Assembly (NCBI RefSeq): GCF_900129025.1
Contig: NZ_FQUM01000003.1
Span: 62,001 to 126,000, forward strand
Origin: Mariniphaga anaerophila
Lineage (GTDB): Bacteria > Bacteroidota > Bacteroidia > Bacteroidales > Prolixibacteraceae
Reading direction: 5' to 3'
Length of the DNA: 64,000 nt
Below are positions 44,367 through 46,916 of the stretch, piece by piece (position 1 is the stretch's first letter; the number at the start of each line of letters is the position of its first letter). Below the pieces are notes generated by a model. It was given only the letters and a program-made list of their open reading frames with translations. It had not been told where the DNA came from and ran no database searches. The position numbers and the translations under genes were made by a program.

Positions 44367-44451
44367 CCAATCGACACAATGCATTCATGAGTTTTCAACA
44401 ATTGTTAATAACACAGGTTGAAACATGGTGAATACAATCAGCCCAAAAAAG

Positions 44452-44483
44452 TTGCTTTGTAGTAGTCTTTTATCCTAATTTTG
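44452..44483 (+). promoter_or_regulatory. Promoter of the large structured RNA
   Basis: TAATTTTG at 44476-44483 matches the TAnnTTTG consensus exactly. TTG at 44452-44454 lies 21 nt upstream (a TTTG at 44456-44459 lies 16 nt upstream), consistent with a Bacteroidota -33 element. Predicted transcription start is near 44490, where the hairpin-rich region begins. Nothing codes for protein directly downstream. Confidence 0.7.
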
Positions 44484-44489
44484 ATAATA

Positions 44490-45045
44490 CCAGGTGAGCG
44501 ATAAAAGGCAGCTCCGAAAATGTGGAAAAGGCAAAAGCTTCTTAGCTGAAACTGGAACCGATTCTCTCCTTCCTCCGGGAAGGCACATCAGAAGAGCCGA
44601 AGTTTGAACCGGGTTGTCTGGAAACCAACGGTTCATTCAATCATCAGGAAGAGAACCAGACGTTCTTTCAAAGATTGAGTCTTCAGGCAGGAGGCCGCCA
44701 ACCGAAAGGAAGGCAACAAAAAACTCCGGTTTCTTGAAAAAGCCATACTGCATAGCACAAAGCGGGTTTCCCGCAAAATGCAAATTGCCGAAAACTGTTT
44801 TCTTCGGAGAACAGATGAAAGCACTGAAAGACACTTCGTCCGGGAAGGCAATCCGGAAAGCCGAACGGACTACTTAAACGTTTTGCCGTAGAAAGCAAAA
44901 CCGGAAAGTACAGGGCAAAAAATTCAGTTGAAAAACTGAACAAAAGCCGGCCATAATAACTGTAGCCTGGCGCTCGGGTCTACTTCGGTAAACCCAGTGA
45001 ATGGGAGCTATTCGTAACAGAGTAGTTCCCATTTGTGCTTTTATA
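44490..45045 (+). ncRNA. Candidate large structured non-coding RNA, about 550 nt
   Basis: No convincing coding frame lies between the fucosidase stop and the Omp85-like gene. Instead hairpins follow one another on the plus strand. They include CCTTCC(TCCG)GGAAGG at 44568-44583; GAACC-GTTG / CAAC-GGTTC at 44606-44634; nested TCAATC / GATTGA and AGAAC / GTTCT at 44637-44678; TGCAT / ATGCA with GCGGG / CCCGC at 44749-44782; CTGTTTTC(TTCG)GAGAACAG at 44795-44814; GTCCG / CGGAC at 44838-44870; GTTTTGC / GCAAAAC at 44880-44901; TTCAGTT(GAAA)AACTGAA at 44923-44940; a UUCG-capped hairpin at 44976-44995; and an 11-bp final stem at 45000-45033. Three cUNCGg loops and a GNRA loop fit only the plus-strand RNA. 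It is not RNase P RNA, tmRNA, SRP RNA or a group II intron by signature. The boundaries are estimates. Confidence 0.75.
45000..45043 (+). terminator. 3' hairpin of the structured RNA
   Basis: An 11-bp stem (AATGGGAGCTA / TAGTTCCCATT, one G-T pair) with a 12-nt loop, followed by TGTGCTTTTAT. The T tract is weak, so it may be a processed 3' end rather than a strict terminator. Confidence 0.5.
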
Positions 45046-45059
45046 CAGATCCTGAAATA

Positions 45060-46916
45060 TTATTCAAACCTCAATGGTTGCGGGGCGGTGGGAGTAAAAC
45101 TGTAAAAGTCCTTTTTGAGCTGCTCTTCCAAAATAACCCCCACAAAACTCATATCAGATGGAGGGAACGGGTAAAATCCAAGTCGCAGATGAAACGTTTT
45201 AAAAACAAGGTTTTCGTTATGAATACGAATACCCAGTCCGAGGCCGCTGTAATAGTGTTCCGTAAAAATGAGGTTTTTATTTGACCCGATTATACCAACA
45301 TCGGCAAAACCATAAGCCGCCATATTAAACTTATAAAACTGCTTACGAAGGAACAGTACATATTCCAAATCGAGACTCAAACGCTGTTTCCCGGCCGCCT
45401 CTCTGCTCGAAAAACCACGAATATGGTCATTCCTGTTTAACGTGAGGTTTTCAATTTCAAAACGACGAATACCCAGCATATAATTAGCGCGTGCAAAAAG
45501 CCGGAAGCGTTTTCTACCAGCCGGTATTTGCCGCGAAATAAAATTCAGCCCAGCCTGCACCTGCCCCTGCTCATACCGATTGTCTTTAAAATAGCCCCCA
45601 ACTCCTCCCGATAAAAAAAGATACCCCTGCCTTTTTACCAGCAGATTGCCGTTTGAAAAATAGAGATGAGCATAATACCGGTCGCCAAACTCATTGGCAT
45701 CGTAACCAAAAACCAGCTCGTTTTTAAACCCCTCGGGAATATCTTCGGTTATGCCATAACTATACACCAATTGGTCTTGCATGTATCTTCGTTGCGAGAA
45801 GGTGAGTCCCGCCAGATAAAAAGTGCTGTTCGAAAAATATTGCAACCCATCTGTTGCCGGCGAAGGCCTGTGAAAATACGTTCGGTTATAAATGCCGGCC
45901 GACAACACCATCTGAGAATTCTGAAAATGCCCGGGTTTCAACTGAAAGCTTCTGCCTCCCCAGGCGCTCAAAAACGCCAAATCCATAGACTCCTGCGTTT
46001 TTATCGGGTCATTATCCAAAACCCGGTCGGTTCTGAACATGCGCTGAGCAGACCCTCCAAAACCCCACTTAATGGAAGGAATAATAAATGGTTTATCCAG
46101 ATTAAAACTAAAACCTTCTCTCAGGTAAGTATTCGTGTACCCCGCAGAAATATCTACAAATTTCCCCTTGAAGTTTTTGATTTTATAAAACGTTTCGAGC
46201 CCCGTGTAAGGCTGCTTATTTAAATGCCCAACAAAACGAAAAGAAATTTCATGGCCAATCCCAAAAATATTCTGGTTATATACCTCCAGCGCTGCCGACT
46301 GGCCTCCATCCACACCTCCTGACACACCAACAGAAAAACGATCTTTCGTGAGAACTGACACTTTCACCAACCCCTTATAAACGGAGTCCTGTTCCAAAAC
46401 AATCTTCACATCCTGAATGTATGGCAAGGACCTGATAATTCGCTCATTTTCATACATCAAATCCGCATCTACAAAATCTCCGACCTTAAACAGAAGCATT
46501 TTTTCAATCGTATTCAGATTTGATTTGGTATGAACTTTATTGGCGGTTCGTTCGAGCCACGACTTTGCCGTTCGCGTTGTATCCTCGAAAGTCGGGCCAA
46601 ACACATCCAACGGTTTAATTGATATTTCCGAAATAATTTTGCCTTCCAACTGGCTGTAGTACTCGAGAGATACGGCTTCTTTATCAACAAAAGCTCTGGG
46701 TGGCGATACCAAAAAATCGTAAATAATCCGTGTCAGTTTTTTTTGTTTGGCTTTATATTCCAAGCTGTCATAAAACTGCTCATACTTTTTAGCATTGCTT
46801 TTCCCCGGAACAAGTTCATTTGGTTCATTGGACTGTGCTGCTGTTTTAAAGGCTGAAACAGAGATAATCAATACAAAAAATAGCTGGATTTTATATTTAT
46901 ATAAACGAATCCACAT
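45060..46916 (-). CDS. Omp85/BamA-like outer-membrane protein
   Basis: An exported 618-aa protein: signal peptide (ending KTAAQS), then a periplasmic segment with a POTRA-like domain (LLFKVGDFVDADLMYENERIIRSLPYIQDVKIVLEQ, residues about 140-185), then a C-terminal 16-stranded barrel-like region of alternating aromatic strands. The lid-loop signature reads NDHIRGFSSREAAGK, close to the Omp85 VRGF motif. Members insert or transport proteins at the outer membrane. A single POTRA sets it apart from BamA proper. It is convergent with the structured RNA and divergent to the TonB-like gene. Confidence 0.85.
   Translation of the reverse strand: MWIRLYKYKIQLFFVLIISVSAFKTAAQSNEPNELVPGKSNAKKYEQFYDSLEYKAKQKKLTRIIYDFLVSPPRAFVDKEAVSLEYYSQLEGKIISEISIKPLDVFGPTFEDTTRTAKSWLERTANKVHTKSNLNTIEKMLLFKVGDFVDADLMYENERIIRSLPYIQDVKIVLEQDSVYKGLVKVSVLTKDRFSVGVSGGVDGGQSAALEVYNQNIFGIGHEISFRFVGHLNKQPYTGLETFYKIKNFKGKFVDISAGYTNTYLREGFSFNLDKPFIIPSIKWGFGGSAQRMFRTDRVLDNDPIKTQESMDLAFLSAWGGRSFQLKPGHFQNSQMVLSAGIYNRTYFHRPSPATDGLQYFSNSTFYLAGLTFSQRRYMQDQLVYSYGITEDIPEGFKNELVFGYDANEFGDRYYAHLYFSNGNLLVKRQGYLFLSGGVGGYFKDNRYEQGQVQAGLNFISRQIPAGRKRFRLFARANYMLGIRRFEIENLTLNRNDHIRGFSSREAAGKQRLSLDLEYVLFLRKQFYKFNMAAYGFADVGIIGSNKNLIFTEHYYSGLGLGIRIHNENLVFKTFHLRLGFYPFPPSDMSFVGVILEEQLKKDFYSFTPTAPQPLRFE

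Follow-up and report, generated by a model that had tools for sequence, protein, structure and literature searches.

A predicted large structured noncoding RNA of Bacteroidota with a nearly invariant core framed by two long-range helices

Few bacterial RNA classes of the size considered here are known, and several of the large RNAs that have been studied (RNase P RNA, tmRNA, group II introns and OLE) led into new areas of biology. The ends of RNase P RNA and tmRNA are joined by a closing helix, a feature that recurs in the RNA described below, which falls in the same size class. GOLLD, ROOL and OLE are also alike in size, noncoding, rich in capped helices and largely open as to function. According to PMC12286853, GOLLD and ROOL are phage- and prophage-encoded, homo-oligomers have been reported for GOLLD, ROOL and OLE, and the raiA motif, 205 nt in the form studied, is a monomer.

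Here we describe a predicted RNA of about 554 nt, encoded on the plus strand of a 64,000-nucleotide stretch of Mariniphaga anaerophila DNA (the window, to which all bare positions refer). It differs from GOLLD, ROOL and OLE in having no Rfam match at gathering score and in being found only in Bacteroidota in our searches; unlike the phage-linked GOLLD and ROOL, it gave no phage match. Like the raiA motif it would be a structured, free-standing RNA whose function is open, but it is far longer than the 205 nt given in PMC12286853 and, again, lacks an Rfam match. With 6S RNA it would share a free-standing form and a large A/U-rich internal loop between helices, but it is three times longer than the 187-position 6S model.

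Rfam 15 gave no match at gathering score anywhere in the window. The family models of GOLLD, ROOL and OLE matched neither in the window nor at 16 distant loci, and the Rfam intron models (group II) had no match in the window. Over 44367-45060, relaxing the threshold to E ≤ 10 returned only two snoRNA models, snoR20 (19 of 43 bits, E 8.8) and Afu_294 (13.2 of 43 bits, E 8.3), which is chance level. The 16 distant loci yielded two tRNAs only, and five distant loci searched at E ≤ 1 yielded one Xist_exon1 match (E 0.16) lying outside the RNA. The genome's sole match to RNase P RNA (RF00010) is elsewhere (C32:72467-72867; 237.8 bits, over the curated cut-off), as is the one tmRNA match over its cut-off (RF00023; C22:158811-159209, 156.7 bits); four weak tmRNA matches fall below it, none at the RNA, and ARAGORN reports no tmRNA in the window. 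For 6S RNA (RF00013) there is no match in this genome, with a model that detects 5 of 14 control genomes, Bacteroides not among them. With no gathering-score match, and with RNase P RNA and tmRNA placed elsewhere, we rejected a known RNA, 6S apart, as the explanation, which agrees with the first-pass annotation, where no known class and no RNase P, tmRNA or group II feature had been recognised. Among the open-access titles and openings of abstracts that were searched, none describes this RNA, and a search of PMC8632094 for Bacteroidota names found no occurrence.

The RNA lies in a gap of 693 bp between the stop codon (44366) of an alpha-L-fucosidase gene (PF01120, E 3.9e-84 in a Pfam search) and the next gene (45060-46916, minus strand). 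The product of the latter (618 aa) matches no Pfam family at E ≤ 0.001, so that the Omp85-like label once attached to it is unconfirmed. An open reading frame of 87 aa inside the gap (44614-44877) is interrupted by an in-frame stop in 76 of the 77 other aligned copies, and in 58 of the 77 its length differs by a number of bases not divisible by three; with its frame broken in 76/77 copies we rejected a protein-coding gene, and the earlier statement that some 690 bp here hold no credible gene stands.

What the gap does hold looks like a free-standing noncoding RNA gene (44489..45042, plus strand), conserved in 116 non-identical copies that show covariation, whose two ends are set from the promoter, the closing helix P1 and the terminator. 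The alignment supports the predicted promoter at 44452..44483, where a TTG (44452-44454) stands 21 nt ahead of the -7 box TAATTTTG (44476-44483), as had been noted at first sight. We take TTG-spacer-TAATTTTG to be the Bacteroidota type of promoter; a sigma-70 scan, which does not cover that type, lists nothing here. The strict pattern TTG-N19..23-TA occurs in 66 of 99 copies (17 of the 116 being left out of this count), and with a looser box a TTG is found 19-21 nt before the best box in 110/116. At the other end, the 3'-closing stem proposed earlier was confirmed, as part of a predicted intrinsic terminator (45000..45043), in which 45000-45013 pairs with 45020-45033 ahead of a T-rich tail. 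A terminator scan agrees (44997-45036), and the pair 45002:45031 covaries.

Just inside these ends, the six-pair helix P1 joins 44490..44495 (CCAGGU) to 44965..44970 (GCCUGG). Across 115 copies its pairs form in 115, 115, 115, 115, 115 and 108, even as four of the six positions vary, in combinations that include CCAGGU/GCCUGG, CCAAGU/GCUUGG and UCAGAC/GUCUGG; 44493:44967 (E 0.0069) and 44494:44966 (E 9.6e-05) covary. A second long-range helix, P2, pairs 44507..44509 (GGC) with 44950..44952, its three pairs forming in 109, 112 and 110 of 115 copies and 44507:44952 covarying (E 0.039). Between them lies the core, with a 5' strand GAGCGAUAAAA (44496..44506) and a 3' strand AUAAUAACUGUA (44953..44964), whose consensus across copies reads GAGNSAUAAAA and AUAAUAACNGUA. 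In the 5' strand AUAAA is present in all 115 copies, the second letter is A in 115 and the third is G in 114. This conservation is partly built in by the search, the copies having been located by AUAAA and AAUAAC and the 3' strand being set in part by the pattern used to scan genome contigs; the one copy of 116 left out of these counts (L034) reads GAUAAC. All 29 loci from the order-level search (L184-L212), some of which had already served to train the model, carry the upstream AG-NN-AUAAA strand and at least five of six P1 pairs, 25 of them all six. The putative NGUA/GAG pairing beside P1 resembles a bulged-G (sarcin-ricin-type) motif. The comparison shows predicted helices P1 and P2 framing a nearly invariant core of 11 + 12 nt, with a periphery of variable sequence and length.

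Selection on base pairing was assessed over the wider structure with 78 of the 116 copies, leaving out the 38 shorter than 575 or longer than 745 bases with flanks. RNAalifold returned 114 consensus pairs, of which 15 covary at E<0.05 against a phylogeny-aware null (30 null alignments, with the tree and the per-branch substitutions kept within rate classes). Sliding the partners by 1-3 columns left none, and 50 random placements yielded 0.08 on average and never more than 1. The 114-pair test was run only after a stricter test over all column pairs, in which a single pair stood out (P1 44494:44966, E 0.05), and its pairs are favoured by coming from the same alignment, a bias that the slid and random controls offset only in part. 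A second alignment of 30 long-form copies, several of them truncated at the 5' end, which left P1 uncounted, showed change on both sides in 45 of 62 pairs and 94.9% of cells paired, a share that fell to 28.9-46.5% once the partners were slid; five of five measures lay above 500 of 500 shuffles. The hairpins do therefore contain covarying base pairs, the mark of a structured RNA, with the signal weak in the all-pairs test.

The consensus places a 5' domain at 44511..44597, in which P3 (44511-44514 with 44594-44597) and a helix pairing 44519-44524 with 44584-44589 enclose inner hairpins at 44525-44564 and 44568-44583. Both alignments support these hairpins, and the covarying pairs of the domain are 44520:44588, 44522:44586, 44569:44582 and 44571:44580. 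A long-range helix of 44599-44603 with 44833-44837 follows, paired in 99.3% of cells of the second alignment and so nearly invariant that it shows little covariation; the poorly conserved middle part that it encloses (44599..44837) includes hairpins at 44722-44731 and 44801-44808 and, in the 78-copy alignment, the covarying pair 44721:44732. Next come two adjoining hairpin domains. The first pairs 44838-44841 with 44867-44870 and, inside, 44847-44849 with 44860-44862; the second pairs 44872-44874 with 44907-44909 and, inside, 44880-44886 with 44895-44901. Together (44838..44909) they hold the covarying pairs 44840:44868, 44848:44861, 44872:44909, 44880:44901 and 44885:44896. A GNRA-capped hairpin (44923..44940; loop GAAA, 44930-44933; 44928:44935 covaries) precedes the P2 and P1 3' strands, and the hairpin at 44971..44999 with a UUCG loop at 44984-44987 leads into the terminator.

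The first-pass annotation had pointed to UNCG loops at 44574-44577, 44803-44806 and 44984-44987 and a GAAA loop at 44930-44933 as the signature of selected structure. All are present where it placed them, but individually they are only partly conserved across copies: among the 78 aligned copies the first (44573-44578) is UNCG in 34, the second (44802-44807) UNCG in 14 and GNRA in 36, and the GAAA site (44929-44934) GNRA in 51. The loop of the last hairpin is C-UNCG-G in 83 of 115 copies (UUCG 44, UACG 31, UCCG 8). The local hairpins that it had drawn by hand were for the most part upheld as well. The pairing that matters most, however, is the long-range pairing of P1 and P2, which, with an upstream array of boxes, goes beyond that description. 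The single-sequence minimum-energy fold also misses P1. Folded alone, the plus strand of 44480-45052 reaches -186.3 kcal/mol (z -5.68), with none of 100 dinucleotide shuffles as good; because the minus strand is also unusually stable, if less so (z -4.29, again 0/100), fold stability alone cannot fix the strand.

To follow the RNA across genomes, a DNA search of 60 genomes, the window's own included, was used, and clear homologues appeared in many members of the family, although a tally at E ≤ 10 is uninformative since every genome passes. A profile built from 24 copies was run on a first set of stretches together with at least 118 stretches from a pattern scan of genome contigs, mostly under Bacteroidota titles and with some evident chance matches (Bacillus and Ruminococcus, for example). 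This gave at least 124 two-ended copies, at least 116 of them non-identical after removal of 8 duplicates. A covariance model of the 3' domain (94 positions, from a 53-copy alignment) was applied to three samples, each of which includes the window's own genome. At E ≤ 0.001 it matches 114 of 140 genomes of the family Prolixibacteraceae (89 of 103 of high quality), with one to four matches in each of the family carriers listed. Of 344 genomes sampled from the order it matches 79, which represent 48 of 195 genera; among the high-quality ones the count is 65 of 284. The RNA is conserved in related genomes. At E ≤ 0.01 it matches 12 of 395 genomes drawn from the phylum, and only four of these are supported at both ends: the window's own and L171 (both by P1 complementarity), and L172 and L173 (by the profile). 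The other eight (L174-L181), marginal and without support at both ends, were dropped as likely false. The model finds nothing in 26 of the 140 family genomes, and as some of these assemblies are nearly complete, carriage of the RNA is not strictly required. Among named records, a copy is present in Draconibacterium sediminis, D. mangrovi, Tangfeifania diversioriginum (L094, also of the Prolixibacteraceae), Maribellus sp. YY47 and an outlier, Algoriphagus hitonicola (L095), of the Cyclobacteriaceae.

On this evidence we are all but certain that a real conserved RNA class is at hand, and the earlier reading, a large structured noncoding RNA that fits no known class, is supported. Comparative analysis shows a self-contained putative gene, made up of box array, promoter, RNA and terminator, with selection at the RNA level on many helices. 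It is most likely a trans-acting structural RNA, predicted to form a new class of large, free-standing RNAs of Bacteroidota with a conserved core on a variable scaffold, and we incline to the view that it works in this scaffolded way. Its working site would be the core between P1 and P2, most likely by binding a conserved protein or RNA. The peripheral helices capped by GNRA and UNCG loops would be the scaffold that holds the core in shape, as in other large RNPs. No partner gene came to light.

The shortest copy with flanks, truncated at the end of its contig, has 370 bases and the longest 1197, or by our estimate about 300 to 1,100 nt of RNA; five copies (L066, L068, L083, L122 and L141), at 985-1197 bases with flanks, are about twice the usual length. 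Long and short forms have in common the ends, the core, the 3' hairpin and the terminator, and their interiors are unalignable with one another. Inside one RNA copy of a relative from the genus of the other supported phylum matches (L171:1068-1427), a 38-nt unit occurs four times, the units being 63-79% alike to the reference and spaced by 108, 112 and 102 nt. This repeat may be a three-way-junction module; three modules folded alone gave z -2.56 (stabler than most shuffles), 0.75 and -0.95. We infer that the RNA may grow by module number.

The same features invite an alternative by analogy, in which the RNA assembles with itself into a homo-oligomer, GNRA loops and repeated modules serving as contacts. 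Its size, its many GNRA- and UNCG-capped helices, the four 38-nt repeats of L171 and the precedents in PMC12286853 would all suit such an assembly. We nevertheless consider it unlikely: neither sequence nor model matches GOLLD, ROOL or OLE, the raiA motif, another large RNA, is a monomer in that same paper, and the phage link of GOLLD and ROOL finds no parallel here.

The predicted scaffolded core would also come with its own control. Ahead of the promoter, on the plus strand, lies an array of boxes (44392..44435) consisting of an inverted pair TTTTCAACA-AT-TGTTAATAA (44392-44411) followed by GGTTGAAAC (44416-44424) and GGTGAATAC (44427-44435); its consensus is TTATNAACAATTGTTNATAA, then two more GTKNATA-like boxes. 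If up to two mismatches are allowed, the 18 fixed letters of TTATNAACAATTGTTNATAA are found in 82 of 116 copies, and if up to four, in 95; in 83 of these 95 the array starts 60 or 61 nt before the TTG. Among 116 random 170-mers from the same stretches, six, which may overlap the element itself, matched with at most one mismatch and none with two to four. Counting boxes singly, TGTTNATAA is found 160 times, spread over 101 of 116 upstream regions, where 2.5 occurrences would be expected; TGTGNATAA, which we take to be the DnaA-box consensus, is found 13 times in 10 of 116, with 1.4 expected. By eye, the upstream boxes of L139, L130 and L140 are nearer the classical DnaA box (TGTGNATAA-like) than the TGTT form. 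In this genome the longer array pattern is perfect only at the two RNA copies and occurs once more with two mismatches (reversed control, 0); that third match lies beside a gene that reads as a replicative helicase and may be chance. The inverted-pair pattern with one mismatch has one site besides the RNA, as many as its reversed control.

The TGTTNATAA boxes resemble DnaA boxes, and the array is a new observation of this study. A regulator acting on the TGTKNATAA boxes would set transcription from this fixed upstream position. DnaA is plausibly that regulator, a suggestion drawn solely from the resemblance to DnaA boxes; the surroundings of dnaA, over 3.5 kb, contain no box cluster and lend it no support. 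It is from this array, and from the A/U-rich core loop between two helices, that one could argue for a regulator of transcription or replication, an RNA that binds RNA polymerase in the manner of 6S RNA, or a replication factor, and whose level follows replication through the DnaA-like boxes. We rate this as quite improbable, given that the core, by reading, lacks a TTTG -7 element and that no boxes cluster near dnaA. Equally doubtful is a more ambitious form of the core model, a Bacteroidota RNA machine with a catalytic or RNP active site framed by P1 and P2, interchangeable peripheral modules and DnaA-controlled transcription; were it true, the amount of RNA would follow DNA replication or growth.

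This genome carries a second copy of the RNA (L032:7648-8250, 99% over 604 bases). The two are identical at 642 of 653 positions over 44391-45043, where the alignment ends on both sides, and both loci (beside the fucosidase and beside a gene that reads as alaS-like) recur in the sister species G001. Within a genome the two loci are 98.3% alike here (G000) and 87.8% in G001, against 82.9% and 86.0% for the same locus compared between the two; because paralogues are thus more alike than orthologous loci, gene conversion or recent copying in this genus is suggested. General concerted evolution was rejected, since in another group within-genome paralogues are less alike (71.2, 72.8 and 73.1% in three genomes) than best orthologues (83.0-98.0%). 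Tandem RNA genes on one strand were seen in L046:6237-7682 (73% alike), L048:4945-7102 (92%) and L049:6137-9019 (88%).

Several copies per genome, loci that differ between groups and the tandem copies of L046, L048 and L049 are what a mobile or selfish element, or its guide RNA, might leave behind. Loci are, however, common to species, as with both G000 loci in G001, and neighbouring genes link copies into groups of as many as 37. A reading of the 30 largest neighbour clusters shows no recurrent transposase family, and 50,697 phage records and 72,556 plasmid records were without a match, all of which makes this origin very improbable. Viral contigs gave no match to the 3' pattern or to one 5' pattern; two matches to another 5' pattern were rejected, neither fitting the RNA profile and that in L223 lying inside a 143-aa open reading frame.

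When copies were joined by any gene family in common among the two nearest genes per side, the 116 fell into 28 synteny groups (37, 21, 10, 9 and smaller), and recurrent neighbours, by reading, are ordinary genes: enolase with ribosomal protein L17, an Nramp-like transporter and a sensor kinase. Because the copies are spread over 28 groups the RNA is not one gene's leader. A same-strand upstream gene, seen in 84 of 105 copies, would suit a cis-acting leader or 3' UTR element of an adjoining gene. This reading is barely credible for an RNA with its own predicted promoter and terminator and with neighbours that differ between groups; of 101 downstream genes, 56 share its strand and 45 run the other way, and the one in the window is antisense.

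We therefore return to a predicted trans-acting RNA with a scaffolded core. What is new is an RNA family with no known relative; its broad kind, the large noncoding RNA with function open, is already known. The small core beside a covarying helix is directly testable by mutation, the upstream control element is defined, and the named carriers make tests of expression, structure and knock-out possible. That evolution has kept the RNA in most of the examined Prolixibacteraceae and in many of their relatives probably means that it has a job in these cells.
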